Assembly (NCBI GenBank): GCA_017471925.1
Contig: JAFURM010000059.1
Span: forward strand, 1-64,000
Origin: Bacteroides sp.
GTDB lineage: Bacteria; Bacteroidota; Bacteroidia; Bacteroidales; Bacteroidaceae
DNA: 64,000 nt
Reading direction: 5' to 3'
The translations under genes and the position numbers were made by a program. Positions within the stretch are counted from its first letter, which is position 1. Each line of letters begins with the position of its first letter. The notes beneath the pieces were generated by a model. The model saw only the letters and a program-made list of their open reading frames with translations. It was not told where the DNA came from and ran no database searches. Below, piece after piece: positions 837-8,302 of this stretch.

Positions 837-1839
837 GTTTCCAACCTTCAAATGTTCTATTGTCTGCAAGGCTTGTTTGTGGAGCCATTCCTGGGGCTGG
901 GACAAATGATTGTTTTATTAATTCACCTTCGCTAACATATACATCAGTACCATTTTCGATAGATTCAATAAGTCCTCTTCTAAATGAATATTGATGACGT
1001 TGTGATGTATTTAATAAAATCGTAGGATTATATGGGTTTTCTAATTCCAATTCATTACTTATATCATCATAGATTTGTTTAATTATGGAATATAAATCCC
1101 TTGAAGGCTTTTCTATATTTAATCCTAAATTCTCTTTTGCTTCTTTCCTTCGTATAGAATAATCGTGACTTCCTGATTCGCTGCATAGAAATTTAATTAT
1201 AGCATCTTCTTTTTCTGCACCCAAGTTTTGATACTTCATTAACTTTCTTGCTAACATCTGAATTTGACTTTTTGATTTATAAACCTGTCCTAAAGTTAGA
1301 GGATGAATTTTTTCGGATAGATTTAATAATATCTCAGTCATATTTCTTTGGTTTGTTATACCAAAATCTCTTTTTGCCATCTCAATATACGCATTGACAA
1401 ACTCAACACTTACAGGAACTTTTGCATTAGGGTCTGAAATACCTGGTATCATTGGATTCAACGGTCCATTAATACTTGGATCAATAGGACCCAATGAAGC
1501 CTGTTTTGTCATAACTAACTTATCTGCTCCTAAACTTATTAATGTACCTGAACTAAAACAATTAGAAGGTATGATAACTTCAAGTTCTTCACAAAAACTT
1601 CTAATTAGATTAACCAAACTCCAAGCCGTAAGAGTATTACCGCCATTAGTATATAAAAATAATGATATTTTTTGTGTATCACCTATACTATCTAGATGCT
1701 CTGAAAACTTTGGCAAAATATCATTTGCAATTTGTGTCTCAAGTCCTTGTCGTGTACTTGTAACATATACTAGCAATTTGGAATTTCTCTGCTCTTCTAA
1801 CTGATTATATAATTCTAACCGATCTACTCTCATATACAA
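826..1839 (-). CDS. ClpP/SDH-type serine protease
   Basis: A 337-residue protein of the ClpP/crotonase-fold peptidase group, closest in pattern to the serine dehydrogenase proteinase (SDH) family. The oxyanion-type segment LYTNGG lies at about residues 62-67. A hydrophobic strand follows, then NCFSSGT with the likely nucleophile Ser96, then ALGAD-like SLGADKLVM and SLGPIDPSI, the family signature after the active site. No signal peptide is seen, so a cytoplasmic site is likely. The start at 1839 is followed by another ATG at 1833. The C-terminal ~120 residues (SRDLYSIIKQIYDDI...) are helical and not recognised. It sits in the AT-rich island beside a methyltransferase gene of opposite orientation, so a role in defence or protein quality control is possible but unproven. 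Confidence 0.75.
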   Translation of the reverse strand: MYMRVDRLELYNQLEEQRNSKLLVYVTSTRQGLETQIANDILPKFSEHLDSIGDTQKISLFLYTNGGNTLTAWSLVNLIRSFCEELEVIIPSNCFSSGTLISLGADKLVMTKQASLGPIDPSINGPLNPMIPGISDPNAKVPVSVEFVNAYIEMAKRDFGITNQRNMTEILLNLSEKIHPLTLGQVYKSKSQIQMLARKLMKYQNLGAEKEDAIIKFLCSESGSHDYSIRRKEAKENLGLNIEKPSRDLYSIIKQIYDDISNELELENPYNPTILLNTSQRHQYSFRRGLIESIENGTDVYVSEGELIKQSFVPAPGMAPQTSLADNRTFEGWKHEN

Positions 1840-1911
1840 AACATCAATGAATATATAATTTCTGCGAAAATAATGATTTTATCTGAGATTATGTGTTTGT
1901 TTTCTTTCTTT

Positions 1912-1942
1912 TTTGCGATATTAAGAATAATTCGTATTTTTG
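1912..1942 (+). promoter_or_regulatory. Bacteroides-type promoter with no clear gene
   Basis: TTTG (1912-1915), 19 bases, then TATTTTTG (1935-1942) is a perfect fit to the Bacteroidetes consensus. It points right, towards 1950-2125, where no convincing gene is seen; an inverted repeat AGATTG-GTG-CAATCT lies at 1975-1989. It may be a relic or drive a small RNA. Confidence 0.45.
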
Positions 1943-2078
1943 TATCATAGTTGTTTGACAAAGCATAACGCAGAAGATTGGTGCAATCTTGAAGTCACCA
2001 AATCGTTACCAACAACTTTCTACTATAGCATTCGCTATTTGTGTATCAATCAGATACGGGATAATTGAATATCTGGGG

Positions 2079-2086
2079 CAAAGATA
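2079..2086 (-). promoter_or_regulatory. Possible -7 box upstream of the protease gene
   Basis: The minus strand reads TATCTTTG, matching TAnnTTTG. The -33 region is weak. The next minus-strand start is at 1839, which would give a leader of roughly 230 bases. The 286 bases between 1839 and 2126 hold this box, the rightward promoter at 1912 and no recognisable coding sequence. Confidence 0.35.
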
Positions 2087-2125
2087 CAATAAAGAAACGA
2101 AAGTGAATGTAGGTGAACTAATAAA

Positions 2126-3640
2126 TCATTCCAGTACAATGACCTTTGCGCTTCGGTTGTCCATGTCGGGCATGGTGGCTCCTACGGGTGCACCGATGTA
2201 GGTGGGGTCGCAGACGGTGAACTTGCGTCCGCCCACCTGGATGTAGTCACCATTTACCGACTGGGTGAAACCTACGGCAGTGGCCAGGTGGCCGGGATAG
2301 TAGACCAGCATCACCTTCAGTCCCAACAGGTCGCGCACCAGTCGGCTGAAGAGGATGGAGCGGTCTTCACAGTCACAATAGGGGTAATAGAGCGACTCTT
2401 CGGCAAAGAAGGCACGGTCGCCTCCCCACACTTTGTTGTCATATTCGTAGACAAAGGCAGTCTGCACGAAGTTCAGCAGGCGTCCCACGGCTTCGGCCTG
2501 ACTCTTGCCGGCAATGCAGCGTTTCAGGGCGGGATAGAGCTGATGCTGCATCCGCTCGCTCAGGGGCGTGTTGGCATAGAAGGCCCAGCGGGTACAGAAG
2601 TCGTTGTCCAGCATGGAGGTGGGGTAGGTGGAGAAGAACTGTTGAAGCGTCTCGTCGCTGCTCACTGTCACCTTCATGTCGGGATAACGTTCCGACTGCA
2701 GCGTGCGTGAGGGCGAGAATCGCTCGGTCAGTAACGGCACTTGGGGTACCAGCAGTGACAGCGGCTGCTCGTTGGGGAAGGCGGCTTCGCAAATCTCCAG
2801 TACCTCTTCCTGACAGTTCAGCGGATAGTAGGCCACGCCGTCTATCGTCCAGTAGCTGCGCTCATAAATCTGGTGCCGGCTGGCCACCAACAGGTAGAGG
2901 CGGTTGTTGCGCATGCCCAAACGCATCTTATAGCCCGACTGGCAGTAGAGGTAGGCACAGAGCAGGGTGGCTTCGTTGCTTCCTTTACCCAGGAAACTGT
3001 CGGTCAGTTCCTGAAGCATCAGCAGGTAGGCCCAGTCGCAGAGCTGGTGACGGATGCGCAACTCCAGACAGTCACGGATGGCGTTGTTGTAGACCGGATT
3101 GGAGAGTTGTTCCCAGGCAGAGGCTATGGTATTGCCGTTGCACTTCTTCAGGGTGAAACGGTGCCTGTCGTCCAGCCTCACCTTGCAGGAAGTGCGGAAG
3201 AAGTTGAAGGTGTAGTAGGTTTCTTGGGGTTGCGGCTCTTCCCTCACGGGAGCTACAGGTTTGGGCTGCGGCTCAGGTGTGGGAATGGGCACCACCTCTT
3301 CTATGGGCTGTGAATTGTCCTGCAGGGGTTTGTCCTTGTCCTCTTCGGGGAAGACCTGGGGCGGAACGGGCGGCTCATCCTTGGGCTTGGGAATTTCCGG
3401 TTTGCGGCGATACTCCTCCCATGCCTGGCGCATGAAGTCGGCATAGGCTTTGTTGGCCCGGTCACGAAAGTCGTTGTACTCCTGTATGGCCTGTTGCTTG
3501 AAGGCTTCATACTGTTTCCTCAAGTCCTCTTCCTGGGCTTCCGTTGTGGTGGCTGCAAGGGCGAGTGTGAGGAGCAGGATGCCTCTCTTGAGGGTTGTCC
3601 TGAGGGCCTGTCTGTCCCGATTCCATCCGTTCTTCATCAT
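2126..3640 (-). CDS. Exported transglutaminase-like protein
   Basis: A 504-residue protein with an N-terminal signal peptide (GILLLTLALAATTTEAQ). A charged helical stretch follows at about residues 38-75, then a proline-rich linker at about 80-145, then a large domain. The C-terminal part carries a transglutaminase/papain-like core: CEDRS with Cys424, YYPGH with His451 and VCDPTY with Asp478, in the Cys-His-Asp order of that superfamily. It could be a protease, a peptidoglycan-linked amidase or a cross-linking enzyme; the sequence does not decide. It is the last gene of the six-gene operon that starts at 8200, 12 bases after the previous stop. Confidence 0.7.
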   Translation of the reverse strand: MMKNGWNRDRQALRTTLKRGILLLTLALAATTTEAQEEDLRKQYEAFKQQAIQEYNDFRDRANKAYADFMRQAWEEYRRKPEIPKPKDEPPVPPQVFPEEDKDKPLQDNSQPIEEVVPIPTPEPQPKPVAPVREEPQPQETYYTFNFFRTSCKVRLDDRHRFTLKKCNGNTIASAWEQLSNPVYNNAIRDCLELRIRHQLCDWAYLLMLQELTDSFLGKGSNEATLLCAYLYCQSGYKMRLGMRNNRLYLLVASRHQIYERSYWTIDGVAYYPLNCQEEVLEICEAAFPNEQPLSLLVPQVPLLTERFSPSRTLQSERYPDMKVTVSSDETLQQFFSTYPTSMLDNDFCTRWAFYANTPLSERMQHQLYPALKRCIAGKSQAEAVGRLLNFVQTAFVYEYDNKVWGGDRAFFAEESLYYPYCDCEDRSILFSRLVRDLLGLKVMLVYYPGHLATAVGFTQSVNGDYIQVGGRKFTVCDPTYIGAPVGATMPDMDNRSAKVIVLE

Positions 3641-3652
3641 TCTATTACTGTT

Positions 3653-4312
3653 TTATCGTTTTATGAGGAATTTATAATATCCTACCGCCAGTTCGGCATA
3701 GTTGTATTTCCTGTCCATGCGCGGAAATTCCTTCAGACTCTGCTTCTTCTTGACAGCCTCTTGAGTCAGGTCCATACCGGCATTGTACAGGGTGGCCCAG
3801 TAGGCTACGGTCGCTTCGGGAGTGGACGGTGCTACTTCTTGGGTACTTTCCCGTACCAGACAGATGAAGGCGGCCAGATAGCTCGTCTGCCAGCCTGGCT
3901 CTATCAGGCGTTCAATGCGGGTGCGCCGCTTCTCCCTTGGGGTTCCTTCTGTTATCAGAAGCTTACCGAAACGTTCCCTCAGCAGACTGTTCCTATCCAC
4001 TTCCCGCTCAATGTGCTCGGCAAAGGAGGGCTTCATCTGAAAGGGACCGATGCTGAAGTCGCCCACTCCCTGCTGCACGTAGAGCAGGCACAGGGTGCGT
4101 ATCTCCAGCATGTCCAGCATTTGCCGGTAGTGGCTGATTTCGGGAGCCACGATGGCCAAGGCCATCAGACTCTCCTCTTTGCCTAACTGCCGCTCCAGGT
4201 CGGCCACCTCTTCCCGGTGGTTCTCGATGAAGGCCACTACACGCTCTATCTCCACGGGGTGGGAGAGGGTACAGGTCATCAGGGCGGCTATGCAGCAGGC
4301 GGAGAGGAACAT
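3653..4312 (-). CDS. Exported protein with possible lysozyme/transglycosylase-like fold
   Basis: A 219-residue protein with a short hydrophobic N-terminus (FLSACCIAALMTC). The segment MALAIVAPEISHY, followed about 30 residues later by FSIGPFQMKPSFA, resembles lytic transglycosylases, where a catalytic Glu is followed by a G-x-x-Q-x-x-P segment. Glu58 would be the acid. This is a motif-level resemblance and could be coincidence. The gene lies 4 bases after the preceding stop and 12 bases before the transglutaminase-like gene, so it is part of the same operon. If correct, it would act on peptidoglycan in the periplasm. Confidence 0.5.
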   Translation of the reverse strand: MFLSACCIAALMTCTLSHPVEIERVVAFIENHREEVADLERQLGKEESLMALAIVAPEISHYRQMLDMLEIRTLCLLYVQQGVGDFSIGPFQMKPSFAEHIEREVDRNSLLRERFGKLLITEGTPREKRRTRIERLIEPGWQTSYLAAFICLVRESTQEVAPSTPEATVAYWATLYNAGMDLTQEAVKKKQSLKEFPRMDRKYNYAELAVGYYKFLIKR

Positions 4313-4316
4313 GGCA

Positions 4317-5414
4317 TCAGTAGCATTTATAATAGTAGAGCACCAGTTGGCGACCTTCGACGGCTATCCAGACAAAAGTGTCTGTCCGCTCGTCATAGAA
4401 TGCCTCCAAGGGATAGCTGCTGCCATAACGTTTGCCGTCTATCAGTACGTAGTCGTAGTTCCAGTGGGCCGAGAACATGTGTCGTCCGCTCTTGTCGTGA
4501 AGGGTCTTCTCGAAGCTGATGATCCACTCCTTGCTTGCTTCCTTGTAGACCCACTCCTTGCGGAAAGGTTCGCCTTTGTATTCCTTGCTGAGGCGGGTGG
4601 TGATGCGCAGGGTCTCCCAGTCGAAGTATTCGCTTTTCAGGTCTATCTCCCGCACCTCGTTCTTGGTCACATAATAGGCCCGGCTGAAGTAATCATAGTC
4701 GTTGTTCAGCCCGTTTACCTTGATGTACCAGAATTCACAGTAGCACTCGCCGTTGTCAAAGAGGTAGAAGTAGTGGCGGGGTGGGTCCTCGGTGTCCATG
4801 TCGGCGGGAATGGGCATCACGTAGTTCACGCCGTCGATGGTCAGCAGGCGTCTGTCTGCCGACAGGCGTGCCGTGTGGTTCTTTGAAGGACTGGTGAACT
4901 CAAAACGTCCCACATCGCGCTTGTAGGTCTGCCCGTCATAGTCGTGTACGAACCAGTTGCCCATGACGTAGAACATGAAATAGTTGTGATGCCTGAAGGT
5001 GGGGTTGACCGTATTGCTCCACCATACCTTGTAGGTGGGATTGTTGTATTCCACGCCACCGTAGGGACCGTACTCCTCGCCCTCTACGATGAGGTAGACA
5101 CCGTCGCCCACTCCATAGGAGTAGATGCACTTCTCGAAGTCCTGCAGGTCTACGTAATCGATTTGCAGCCAGTCGTCGCTCTCTATGGCCCGGATGCCGT
5201 TCCAGATGAAGGTCTTCTTGTCCAGCACCGTGTCGCGCACGATGCAGGCATACTTGCCGCCGTTCAGCTTCAGGTTGGAGGTGTATTCGCCGAAATTGAG
5301 TACCTCGTTGTAGCCCATCGTCAGCAGGACGTTCCTCACGGGACCATCCGCACGGAGCGGCTGCAGGGCGGTGCAGAGCAGGGCGAACAGGATGGGGAGA
5401 ATGTATTTTCGCAT
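4317..5414 (-). CDS. Exported hypothetical protein of the caspase operon
   Basis: A 365-residue protein, not recognised. The start at 5414 was chosen because it gives a clean signal peptide (MRKYILPILFALLCTALQPLRA) and lies 10 bases after the caspase-gene stop; the longer frame would overlap that gene. The mature part is rich in Tyr, Trp and Asp and predicts as mostly beta-strand, with repeated phrases such as GPYGGVEYNNPTYKVWW and DGKRYGSSYP. It may be a beta-propeller or a set of MORN-like hairpins, but this is a guess from strand spacing. It is the fourth gene of the operon. Confidence 0.6.
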   Translation of the reverse strand: MRKYILPILFALLCTALQPLRADGPVRNVLLTMGYNEVLNFGEYTSNLKLNGGKYACIVRDTVLDKKTFIWNGIRAIESDDWLQIDYVDLQDFEKCIYSYGVGDGVYLIVEGEEYGPYGGVEYNNPTYKVWWSNTVNPTFRHHNYFMFYVMGNWFVHDYDGQTYKRDVGRFEFTSPSKNHTARLSADRRLLTIDGVNYVMPIPADMDTEDPPRHYFYLFDNGECYCEFWYIKVNGLNNDYDYFSRAYYVTKNEVREIDLKSEYFDWETLRITTRLSKEYKGEPFRKEWVYKEASKEWIISFEKTLHDKSGRHMFSAHWNYDYVLIDGKRYGSSYPLEAFYDERTDTFVWIAVEGRQLVLYYYKCY

Positions 5415-5424
5415 AACGTTTTGG

Positions 5425-6642
5425 TTAGAATGTAATCTCTTTCCAGGTAGCCTCCATGGCGGTGGAGACATTCACTGTGGGAGTCTGCGGGTTGTTGTTT
5501 CTCACGATGGAGTGTTGTCTGACGTTGGTGGTCACATAGTCGGTCAGTTGTTTCAGGGTGACGTCGCCCTTGCTGTCCTTCAGCTTCTTCAGCAGGTAGT
5601 AGGTGAAGAGTCCGTGTCCTTTGGCCTCCAAGGGGTAGGCGGTCTCGTCTTCCTTGGTGGCGGCAAAGGCCACGACGTTGCCGGTCAGGCGGTTTTCTTT
5701 AGGCTTGATGGCTACGGCCTTGGCTGCCGTGAGCATGCCGCCGTTGCGCTGCGCACCGCTGAAGCAGGCATCGATGAAGACAGTGACGCTTCGTGCGTTC
5801 ATCTCGCCCAGCTGGTCATAGAAGGAACTGAGGGCGTAGGCACTCTCGGGGTCGTTGGCAATGCCGTCCACGGGGAGGAGGTAAGCCTTCTTGGTGGTCT
5901 CGTCGGGCATGCCGTGTCCGGAGTAGTAGACGATGAAACTGGCCTCGCCGTTGAAGGCGTCGGCCACGTTCTTCAGCCATCTCACTTCGGAGCGCATCTG
6001 GTTACGTGTGGCGTTGGCCTTGATGTGAATGTTGTCCTTGGGTACGCCGAGTGTTTTCTGGCAATATTCGGCAAAGACCTTGCCGTCCTTCAGGGCAAAG
6101 TTCACGTCGGAGATGTTGCTTTCGGAGTACTTCTCGTTGGAGATAATCAGAACAAAGGTGTTGCTGTTCTTTCGTTTGTTCACGGGAATGGAGACATCCA
6201 CGTCAGAGAGAACTTCTTCCTTGGCGTTGTTGCCCAGCACGTCATCTATCCTCACGTTGTTGCGGGCCAGGTAGTCCAGCCCGTCCTGTCCGGCCTTCTG
6301 CATGTCGGTCAGGTAGCTGGGGTCGCCCACCTCCACCTTACACAAGGCTCTGAGGTAGTAACACTTGGGCTGTGCGGCGTCATAGGAGAGCGCCGAAGTG
6401 CAGTCGGCCACGGCATAGAGGTAGCGGCCCTCCTTATAGTAGGCTTCCGCCCGCTTGTAGTAGTAGTCGGCGCAGCGGTTGTCGGGGTTTCTCAGCAGTC
6501 TGCTCATGGCAACGACGGCCCCGCCATAGTGCTGCTTCTTCATGTTCTCCTTGTACTCCTGCAGCTCGGCGTTTTGGGCCTGCAGCCCCGTACAGAGGGT
6601 GGTGAGCAGCGTCAGTGCTGCCAGTATGCTTCGTTTCATCAT
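5425..6642 (-). CDS. Exported caspase-like (C14) peptidase with TPR repeats
   Basis: A 405-residue protein: signal peptide (residues 1-22), two or three TPR-like helices at about 28-125, then a caspase p20-like domain from about residue 160. The catalytic dyad is visible: YYSGHGMP with His243 and FIDACFSGA with Cys293, the classic caspase/metacaspase order. A conserved FVLIISNEKY strand opens the domain. Export to the periplasm is unusual compared with cytoplasmic prokaryotic caspases used in defence. It lies 8 bases downstream of the DUF4384 gene; DUF4384 and caspase domains are often linked. The target is unknown. Confidence 0.85.
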   Translation of the reverse strand: MMKRSILAALTLLTTLCTGLQAQNAELQEYKENMKKQHYGGAVVAMSRLLRNPDNRCADYYYKRAEAYYKEGRYLYAVADCTSALSYDAAQPKCYYLRALCKVEVGDPSYLTDMQKAGQDGLDYLARNNVRIDDVLGNNAKEEVLSDVDVSIPVNKRKNSNTFVLIISNEKYSESNISDVNFALKDGKVFAEYCQKTLGVPKDNIHIKANATRNQMRSEVRWLKNVADAFNGEASFIVYYSGHGMPDETTKKAYLLPVDGIANDPESAYALSSFYDQLGEMNARSVTVFIDACFSGAQRNGGMLTAAKAVAIKPKENRLTGNVVAFAATKEDETAYPLEAKGHGLFTYYLLKKLKDSKGDVTLKQLTDYVTTNVRQHSIVRNNNPQTPTVNVSTAMEATWKEITF

Positions 6643-6649
6643 GGATGGT

Positions 6650-7516
6650 TCATTTCTTTCTGATGGTCAGGTTTCGTTTGTCCACACACATGCTGTTGTC
6701 TCTGCTCCGGCTCTTCACCAACCACTTCTGGAAAGCTTCGAAACTCAGTTCGCGCGGCAGCAGTTCGGCCTTATCCGAAGAGGTGGCCTTGGCGAATTCG
6801 TTGGGCGAGAAGATGATGTAGAGCGTATTCTGCTCCTGCTGGCGTGTGCAGCTCAGGGTATATTCGTCCACTATCGCGGCATCCTTCCCGCCATGTTCGG
6901 CGGAGAAGAGCAGATAGGAGGTGTCGTGCCGCACGGGCATGACGGCCTCGGTGGAGTGTTTGTAGGGCAGGAGGCAGTAGACGTTTTGGGTCACTTCGTC
7001 CAGCAGGTAGACAGCCAGAAAACCGTCGGCGGGCGATTGGAAGTAGAGGTACATGTCATCGCCGTTGCGGAAGTCGGTGGCGGCAAACTTCAGGTCGGTG
7101 CCGTTGCGCAGCACCTCAGCCTTGAAGTCGATGGATGCTTTCTGGATTTCGCGGATGCGGCCGGCGAGGGTCACCTTTACCGCCAGCATGCCGTTGCCGT
7201 AGCTGATTTCATATTTCGGCTCCTCGGTTGTCTCTATCCATTCGCCTTTCACCTCGCTCTCGCCTAAGGAGAAGAAGTCCACGTCGGACTTCCCGTTCTC
7301 GTTGCTGATGAAGGTGGTATTGGCCTGGGTGACCACCGTGCCGAACTCGTCGGCAATGGCCTGAATCTTGGCACGCTCCAGGGCGGTACGCTTGGCCTGT
7401 GCGGGCGACACGTCCTCAGAGGCGTGGTAGGTGTACTCCACGCGTACCTCCTTCACCTCCTGGGCCATCAGGACGGCAGGAAGCAGCATCAGGATAAGCC
7501 ACAAACGGATATGCAT
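6650..7516 (-). CDS. Exported DUF4384 protein
   Basis: A 288-residue protein with a signal peptide (LWLILMLLPAVLMAQ). The N-terminal ~100 residues (SPAQAKRTALERAKIQAIADEFG) resemble the LPP20/FlgT-N type alpha-beta unit. The region FRNGDDMYLYFQSPADGFLAVYLLDE..VYCLLPY followed by LYIIFSPNEF is the DUF4384 signature, at about residues 145-245. DUF4384 modules are commonly found with peptidases and kinases and are thought to be sensory or binding modules. The gene is second in the operon, 6 bases after the LPP20-like gene. Confidence 0.75.
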   Translation of the reverse strand: MHIRLWLILMLLPAVLMAQEVKEVRVEYTYHASEDVSPAQAKRTALERAKIQAIADEFGTVVTQANTTFISNENGKSDVDFFSLGESEVKGEWIETTEEPKYEISYGNGMLAVKVTLAGRIREIQKASIDFKAEVLRNGTDLKFAATDFRNGDDMYLYFQSPADGFLAVYLLDEVTQNVYCLLPYKHSTEAVMPVRHDTSYLLFSAEHGGKDAAIVDEYTLSCTRQQEQNTLYIIFSPNEFAKATSSDKAELLPRELSFEAFQKWLVKSRSRDNSMCVDKRNLTIRKK

Positions 7517-7522
7517 AGCCCG

Positions 7523-8200
7523 TTACCAGCCTAAAAGTTCGTCCAACTGTTCGTGCAGCTCGTCGCCTTTTTGCTTGAGGTCTTCCTTGATGACCTTCTT
7601 GGCCACCTTCTTGGCCATGTTGCCGCTGTAGGCGATGCGCAGCAATACCTCCTTGTTGCCCCCTTTCTTTTCGCGGTAGGCCTCCACCAGGGTAATGGTG
7701 CGTCCGATGCTTTGTGAGATGAGGTTCTTGCCGGCCATTACGCTCTTGCTGATGGACTCGGCCTGTCCTTCAGAGAGCTGCTCGTTGGCCAGGGAGTTCT
7801 CCACCAAGGCGGTAATCTCCGTCTGAATCTGTGCGGCCAGGTTCAGCTTGGCCAGTTCCTGGGCCTGCATCTTGGCGGCGTCATAGTGTTCTCCGATGCT
7901 CATGGCCTCACCGATAATATATTTGGGGAACATGTCTTCGTCAAATTCAGCCATCTGCATCATGTAGGCGCGATCCAATTGGCGGTCTAAGGGCAGTGCA
8001 CCGGGAGTGACCTGCCATCCCTCTTTCTCGAACTTCTTGGCCTCCTTGCGGGCGGTATCGCTCGCCTTCTTGTTCAACTCTGCCTTGGTGGCTTTGGCCA
8101 GTTCCTGACGCTCCTTCAACAGTTCCTGGGCTGTCTGTGCAAAACTCATCCCGCTTATAGCCATGCACAAAGCGGCTAACAAAACGATTCTTTTCATCAT
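7523..8200 (-). CDS. Exported LPP20-like protein, first gene of the caspase operon
   Basis: A 225-residue protein with a cleavable signal peptide (IVLLAALCMAISGMSFAQ) and no lipobox Cys. After a charged helix (residues 25-60) comes an LPP20-like domain: AKMQAQELAKLNLAAQIQTEI, SISKSVMAGKNLISQSIGRT and EVLLRIAYSG at about residues 105-205. The shared fold with the next gene's N-terminus suggests partners or relatives. A promoter lies at 8268-8302. No function can be assigned beyond an envelope location. Confidence 0.65.
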   Translation of the reverse strand: MMKRIVLLAALCMAISGMSFAQTAQELLKERQELAKATKAELNKKASDTARKEAKKFEKEGWQVTPGALPLDRQLDRAYMMQMAEFDEDMFPKYIIGEAMSIGEHYDAAKMQAQELAKLNLAAQIQTEITALVENSLANEQLSEGQAESISKSVMAGKNLISQSIGRTITLVEAYREKKGGNKEVLLRIAYSGNMAKKVAKKVIKEDLKQKGDELHEQLDELLGW

Positions 8201-8267: not shown

Positions 8268-8302
8268 CAAAGTTATGTATTATTTCTGAATAATCCTAAA
8301 AA
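8268..8302 (-). promoter_or_regulatory. Promoter of the caspase operon
   Basis: The minus strand has TAACTTTG (8275-8268), matching TAnnTTTG, with a TTTTTAG -33-like element about 20 bases upstream (8302-8296). Transcription would start near 8262, about 60 bases before the ATG at 8200. Confidence 0.65.

Follow-up and report, generated by a model that had tools for sequence, protein, structure and literature searches.

We analyzed a 64,000-nucleotide (nt) stretch of a Bacteroides sp. genome (assembly GCA_017471925.1, contig JAFURM010000059.1, positions 1 to 64,000; termed the window), which comes from a 2.87 Mb draft. Six open reading frames (ORFs), all on the minus strand, span positions 2126-8200 and were named g1 to g6 in the order of their transcription. 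From g1 to g6 they are separated by 6, 7, 10, 4, and 12 nt, which bears out the six-gene operon described by a first-pass annotation of this DNA. The first gene, g1 (7523-8200), encodes 225 amino acids (aa); g2 (6650-7516) encodes 288 aa with a DUF4384-like C-terminal half; and g3 (5425-6642) encodes a caspase of 405 aa, composed of a TPR-like N-terminal half (residues ~25-140) and a catalytic module (~144-403). They are followed by g4 (4317-5414), which encodes a near-orphan, beta-repeat-like protein of 365 aa and whose start was corrected to 5414 (the longest-ORF start, 5471, falls within g3), by g5 (3653-4312), whose 219-aa product is predicted to have a lysozyme fold resembling that of lytic transglycosylases, and by g6 (2126-3640), which encodes 504 aa with a predicted transglutaminase-like, LapG-like cysteine-protease domain at its C-terminus (~340-504). 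Export was judged with a home-made hydropathy test that looks for an N-terminal basic residue and a hydrophobic stretch. Both features are found in g1, g2, g3, g4, and g6, whose products are predicted from these leaders to be exported; the leader of g5 is poor, being hydrophobic and devoid of a basic residue at the N-terminus, so that five of the six leaders initially assigned are retained.

The caspase identity of g3 is firm, with a match to Peptidase_C14 (Pfam entry PF00656) at E 2.4e-22 and 80.2 bits, above the curated cut-off of 21.4; the protein stays below the cut-off of the EACC1-associated caspase model NF047832 (70 bits versus 140). The catalytic residues named beforehand, His243 (codon 5914-5916) and Cys293 (codon 5764-5766), are present. 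The TPRs that were attributed to the same protein are less secure, as the best Pfam signal (E 0.0093) is under the cut-off and the top matches in a search of PDB sequences are TPR proteins at E 1.2e-4. Two residues before Cys293 lies Asp291 (codon 5770-5772), the predicted residue for a basic P1 position. In TbMCA2, Asp211 presumably holds the same place, two residues before the catalytic Cys213. The part of the metacaspase literature used here counts Asp211 among the residues linked to substrate binding or activity and states that metacaspases and paracaspases cleave after Arg or Lys (PMC4357240). Given the metacaspase-like placement of its Asp291, the g3 caspase is likely to cut after Arg or Lys. 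The first-pass annotation had also assumed that prokaryotic caspases are mostly cytoplasmic, a view that finds no backing in the sections we drew on of a survey of 671 prokaryotic caspase sequences, where 7 are classed as intracellular, 98 as membrane, 30 as extracellular, 7 as membrane and extracellular, and 529 carry no location information; most of the 98 membrane-class caspases have one N-terminal helix, possibly a signal peptide (PMC3501461).

We compared gene order across Bacteroidales and found that part of this operon recurs. A scan of contigs from named genomes with g6 yielded 30 loci, in which partners were sought by tblastn at E<=1e-4: 14 contain a caspase, 13 contain g1, 11 contain g2, and none contains g4 or g5. 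All 11 loci with g2 are among the 14 caspase-bearing ones, and the other three (L006, L015, and L024) end just upstream of the caspase. The four genes g1, g2, caspase, and g6 are all present in 10 of the 30 loci, in that order in 8 of the 10, and the caspase may occur in several copies (three in L007, two in L005). Four further loci with all four genes were found (L054, L070, L079, and L080), and overall the four are together in 14 of the 89 loci examined outside the window contig (L003-L032 and L053-L111, each fetched for carrying one or more of the genes). In an order-wide sample of 149 genomes, the source genome included, matches at E<=0.001 were obtained in 20 genomes for g1, 15 for g2, 78 for g3, 3 for g4, 17 for g5, and 35 for g6. 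With the window contig excluded, a strong caspase match lies within 10 kb of g2 at 10 of 16 places (one of them a second locus of the source genome), of g1 at 7 of 19, and of g6 at 6 of 38. The chance expectation, assuming genomes of 3.5 Mb, is ~0.17 for g2 and ~0.25 for g6, which puts g2 near a caspase ~60 times more often than chance; caspases that always stand without the partner genes were thus not seen. Within the genus (158 genomes), g6 was found in 70 genomes, a caspase in 57, g2 in 11, and g5 in 11, and at 9 of the 12 g2 places, counting both of the source genome, a caspase lies no more than 15 kb away, the three exceptions being G286 (on a 4 kb contig), G279 (at a contig end), and G243 (caspase ~43-45 kb away).

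One to three caspases together with g1, g2, and g6 make up the recurring core, and the other genes belong to a local cassette that varies by species. Because g6, caspases, and relatives of g5 also occur in other contexts, we regard the six genes as a core with a local cassette and not as a fixed set. The earlier description of all six as one set therefore holds for g1, g2, the caspase, and g6, whose association is far above chance, but not for g4 and g5, relatives of which are absent from the 30 loci of the g6 scan.

Several loci show how these genes can be rearranged. The second locus of the source genome (L053, contig C23, 8000-27000) contains a g2-like gene, a g1-like gene (316 aa, extended at the N-terminus), a caspase of 929 aa with BspA-LRR, and an outer-membrane barrel protein, and has no g6. 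In G243, g1-g2 (L103, C3 ~384-385 kb) and caspase-caspase-AbiGi-g6 (L075, ~335-342 kb) are on the same strand, ~43-45 kb apart, and the edges of the gap carry phage-like-looking genes (for a 2260-aa protein and transposase-type proteins, judged without a family search), as if a prophage had split the operon. The run between caspase and g6 can also harbor genes of the toxin-antitoxin or abortive-infection type, namely MNT nucleotidyltransferase and HepT-like genes (L003, 9377-9933) or the AbiGi gene just mentioned (L075, 3824-4552, minus strand). In 30 of the 57 caspase-containing genomes of the genus, we observed another caspase type, with an open frame of 920-955 aa and 35-39% identity, which is a separate family; the one case opened (L111, 3211-5973 in reversed coordinates) lies beside a gene for a 700-aa protein and is without g1, g2, and g6.

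From the fetched loci we collected 57 caspase proteins, 55 of which have a full catalytic module (54 different genes). The His-Cys dyad is intact in 53 of the 55 aligned modules and the equivalent of Asp291 is present in all 55. The simple leader test is passed by 52 of the 55, the remaining three comprising two borderline cases and one at a contig end. The catalytic modules match one another in all 1431 pairs, whereas N-terminal halves of at least 60 aa match in 269 of 1176 pairs and that of the window's g3 matches none: the N-terminal half is exchanged while the catalytic module is retained. Among 13 further caspases scanned, the Pfam domains found in the N-terminal halves are Sel1, WG, TPR, BspA-type LRR, CARDB, and outer-membrane barrel; that bacterial caspases can have Sel1 and TPR partners was already on record, as part of the above survey documents (PMC3501461).

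The two modules without the dyad are L097_4 and L056_6 (Leu/Gly and Leu/Pro), and L097_4 adjoins an intact caspase, as a pseudo-enzyme partner might. A [VI]DxxIP stretch opens the catalytic module in 41 of the 55 proteins. We considered it as a cleavable linker and dropped this idea, since L104_2 and L104_3 keep a similar VDxxI stretch immediately after the leader, and we therefore count it as part of the module. The L104 region 934-3924 (reversed coordinates) contains two tandem caspases whose module comes right behind the leader and whose extra part is C-terminal, the opposite order to the other modules listed.

The first-pass annotation had recognized a transglutaminase-like Cys424-His451-Asp478 triad in g6, and none of the three residues varies across the 41 aligned sequences, that of the window among them. 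The C-terminal fold predicted by AlphaFold2 matches LapG, a periplasmic protease that depends on calcium, including its D-C-E-D site, and the D-C-E calcium-site residues are likewise invariant in all 41 family members; the catalytic and calcium-site positions of LapG follow the parts used here of two reports (PMC13090378, PMC4866520). From the D-C-E-D site in the model, g6 is predicted to be a calcium-using protease. Transglut_core (PF01841) does not match g6 at E<=1 and matches 27 of the 41 aligned members at this threshold (best E, 4.7e-4), and a g6 profile found nothing credible among PDB sequences at E<=1. The LapG family profile PF06035 (Peptidase_C93) gave no match in the source genome at E<=0.1; in a control it gave a match in 1 of 14 genomes, that of Caulobacter vibrioides. 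The g6 gene closes several kinds of runs of predicted exported genes. One such run without a caspase, L073, encodes a small lipoprotein-like protein, a weakly LPP20-like protein of 632 aa, and a PEGA-barrel protein; the caspase-free runs of L077, L071, L076, and L081 also end in g6 and resemble L073 by size only.

Family tests modified the view of the other products. The proposal that g1 is an LPP20-like protein was abandoned, as LPP20 (PF02169) does not match g1 at E<=1 and matches just 3 of the 28 aligned members of its family; g1 has no recognizable family. The assignment of g2 to DUF4384 (PF14326) is weak. At E<=1, the profile matches 19 of the 27 proteins aligned for the g2 family, and a paralogue from the same genome scores 31.6 bits, above the curated cut-off of 27; g2 itself remains below this cut-off (E 1.3e-3, 19.2 bits). 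Profiles of g1, g2, and g5 found nothing credible among PDB sequences at E<=1. The possibility that g5 is a lysozyme-fold enzyme (Glu58, codon 4139-4141) is supported by prediction: AlphaFold2 gives the fold of a lysozyme-type lytic transglycosylase, and Glu58 is conserved in all 50 sequences of the alignment, which include g5 itself. The Pfam family SLT (PF01464) does not match g5 and matches 1 of the 50 aligned members, at E 0.053. Relatives of g5 occur in other contexts in L107-L110, from four genomes, beside a gene for a protein of 531-574 aa with GFLKKLKQK near its start, and g5 is likely a gene recruited into the cassette. For g4 we obtained no Pfam match. A large protein search, restricted to proteins with 0.55-1.75 times the length of g4 and with short words in common, matched it to one other protein, P0225 (627 aa), whose ends are the same and enclose a longer repeat array; among the 149 genomes, two weak partial matches cover 80-88 residues. 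The g4 repeat was also sought in the caspase N-terminal halves and had no match in the collected ORF set. By its sequence, g4 looks like a fast-evolving beta-repeat protein.

On the 3' side of the operon, the next gene follows after 286 nt on the same strand and encodes a ClpP-like SDH-type serine protease (826-1839), and an N6/N4 DNA methylase gene (6-563) is truncated at the window edge. On the 5' side, 994 nt separate g1 from a thiamin cluster that, according to Pfam, encodes a fused ThiE/ThiD-type protein, ThiF, a BATS/radical-SAM protein, ThiC, and ThiG. A candidate -7 promoter element, TAACTTTG, is located at 8268-8275 on the minus strand, 67 nt before g1, and has the form TAnnTTTG, which we take to be the Bacteroides -7 box. 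This single TAACTTTG site is not significant, because the window contains 36 TANNTTTG against 20.1 expected. A sigma-70 promoter scan returned 10 promoter-like sites versus 5.7 expected (standard deviation, 2.6), and a terminator scan returned 8 terminator-like sites versus 8.4 expected, hence no terminator signal.

Possible clients of the caspase are suggested by a group of loci with fimbrillin genes. In L079 (97-13019), the gene after the caspase encodes a carboxypeptidase-regulatory-like protein; three genes for fimbrillin lipoproteins (Mfa_like_1) come next, and g1, g2, and g6 complete the run. In L093, L094, and L095, we found a caspase, relatives of the three L079 fimbrillins, and g2, with g6 in L095 only and g1 not found, and the 4 kb contig of L102 holds two of the fimbrillins and g2. 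These five loci may represent type V pilus genes with a protease of their own. Near their N-termini, fimbrillins two and three have Thr-Arg in 9 of 10 sequences and Thr-Lys in the tenth. Fimbrillins of this family are processed by Rgp according to part of one report (PMC5954841) and by a surface clostripain according to part of another (PMC12632263); because both act on the same family, the Thr-Arg site is compatible with processing at Arg and is not diagnostic.

We propose, with a probability of about 45%, that g1, g2, the caspase or caspases, and the LapG-like g6 form an exported proteolytic maturation system whose target can be swapped. In this scheme, selected envelope or surface proteins would be cleaved after Arg or Lys by the caspase and a second time by the g6 protease, probably in a calcium-dependent manner. 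The exchangeable N-terminal halves (TPR, Sel1, LRR, WG, CARDB, or barrel) might pick the substrate or the place, with g1 and g2 acting as carrier or scaffold of the caspase in the envelope. We infer that the genes of the variable stretch, g4 and g5 here and three fimbrillins elsewhere, encode substrates or local partners. In the window, g5 could be released or placed by proteolysis and would then open the peptidoglycan locally.

A number of observations weigh against this proposal. The fimbrillin Thr-Arg site does not point to the caspase, since proteins of this family are substrates of other proteases, the window contains no fimbrillin, and g6 is found in just two of the four caspase-fimbrillin loci. 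PF06035 finds nothing in the source genome, and two of the 55 caspases lack the dyad. Caspases of the window type are without g1, g2, and g6 in the fetched stretches of L097-L100, L105, and L106, and so are those of L104, the contig of which is just 5 kb; L101 is not counted here, as its caspase is preceded by a g1-like short ORF. Conversely, no caspase is present in 16 of the 30 loci of the g6 set (some of them short contigs) or in 15 of 20 hand-picked g6 loci of the genus, the other 5 having one, and g1, a g2-like gene, and g6 are found without a caspase in L086-L089, L057, and L069. No strong caspase lies within 10 kb at 6 of the 16 g2 places, and gene order differs in L020, L022, and the second locus of the source genome (g2'-g1'-caspase-barrel).

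The main rival, which we consider rather unlikely, is a periplasmic death or defense system: the N-terminal half would sense phage adsorption or envelope damage and the caspase would be switched on, whereupon the LapG-like protease and g5 would destroy the envelope. A caspase, exchangeable sensor-like repeats, and a predicted muramidase-like fold would suit such a role, in which g5 could be the killing arm in the window. Defense-type genes do occur inside the run elsewhere (MNT/HepT in L003, AbiGi in L075), genes with a phage-like look, judged as above, adjoin L056, L075, and L103, and the generic PADLOC caspase model matches g3 at E 8.2e-11. Of the other five, g1 and g6 match PADLOC models, weakly (E 0.014 and 0.063) and to unrelated systems. 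However, the g3 match is confined to the caspase domain, the core products are all predicted to be exported, no NTPase was matched in Pfam among the six, relatives of g5 are missing from all 30 loci of the g6 set, and the four loci in which fimbrillins come after the caspase better fit processing. We prefer maturation over death or defense because g5 is exceptional and fimbrillins recur.

It is quite improbable, in our estimation, that the genes form a peptidoglycan or outer-membrane stress-response operon, in which g5 would trim the wall and the two proteases would control the levels of g5 and of misassembled outer-membrane proteins. The predicted fold of g5 with its Glu58, the barrels that adjoin a caspase or form part of one (L053, L022), and the PEGA-barrel protein of the caspase-free L073 would be in line with this role, but g5 is outside the recurring core and the content of the cassette is rather variable for a housekeeping response. 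Very improbable is a mere neighborhood, in which g1, g2, and g6 would constitute independent envelope operons and caspase genes would insert there because the place tolerates insertions: caspases without the other genes (G255 and elsewhere), g1/g6 loci without a caspase, and unrelated genes, some of toxin-antitoxin type, in the same gap speak for it, but the order g1-g2-caspase-g6 is largely kept in the four-gene loci, g1, g2, and a caspase come together again with other neighbors in the source genome's second locus, the proximity of g2 to caspases far exceeds chance, and DUF4384 is an accessory domain of cyanobacterial orthocaspases, as stated in the part used of one report (PMC7475262).

The maturation system proposed above might have a wider bearing. 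Exported C14 caspases with exchangeable targeting halves, together with a LapG-like protease, could constitute a third clan CD maturation route in Bacteroidales, each caspase being dedicated to proteins of its own cassette (type V pilins, beta-repeat surface proteins, or wall enzymes); the gap from g2 to g6 would then serve as a slot for cassettes, within which a protease and its client move as a unit. We regard this extension as unlikely. Prokaryotic caspases have been discussed mostly as cell-death or stress factors in the portions of the caspase literature that we used. An exported group that recurs next to a LapG-like protease would place part of the caspase family in the Bacteroidales envelope; such caspases would gain testable clients and would extend the short list of enzyme families that mature surface proteins in these bacteria. 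Among the open-licence papers listed as matches, which included surveys of caspase homologues and work on LapG, metacaspase structures, and pili, and which were judged by titles and the starts of abstracts, we found no description of this operon and none joining bacterial caspases with type V pili or LapG with caspases in Bacteroidetes.

The individual components resemble known systems to different degrees. Like the lysozyme-fold lytic transglycosylases and muramidases of the GH23/Tse3 type, g5 has the predicted fold and the invariant Glu, but it lacks a Pfam SLT match. The C-terminal part of g6 shares with LapG/DvhG (BTLCP, Peptidase_C93) the predicted fold, the Cys-His-Asp residues, the D-C-E-D site, and predicted export. 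The g6 protein differs from them in having no PF06035 match, in its length (504 aa, including a long helix at the N-terminus and a spacer rich in proline), and in having a caspase as its neighbor. With bacterial metacaspases and orthocaspases (C14B), the caspases described here have in common the C14 domain, the His-Cys dyad, the Asp two residues before the Cys, and N-terminal Sel1 or TPR partners, and possible leaders and multicaspase operons in Bacteroidetes were already noted in the part of the survey that we used (PMC3501461). Their recurrence in the company of g1, g2, and a protease predicted to be LapG-like is a setting absent from that part of the account. Compared with the processing of type V pilins by Arg-gingipain (C25) or surface clostripain (C11), the peptidase belongs to family C14, the window has no fimbrillin, and cleavage is a proposal; what the systems would share is the use of clan CD cysteine proteases for the maturation of Bacteroidales surface lipoproteins, and fimbrillins are encoded in four of the caspase loci.

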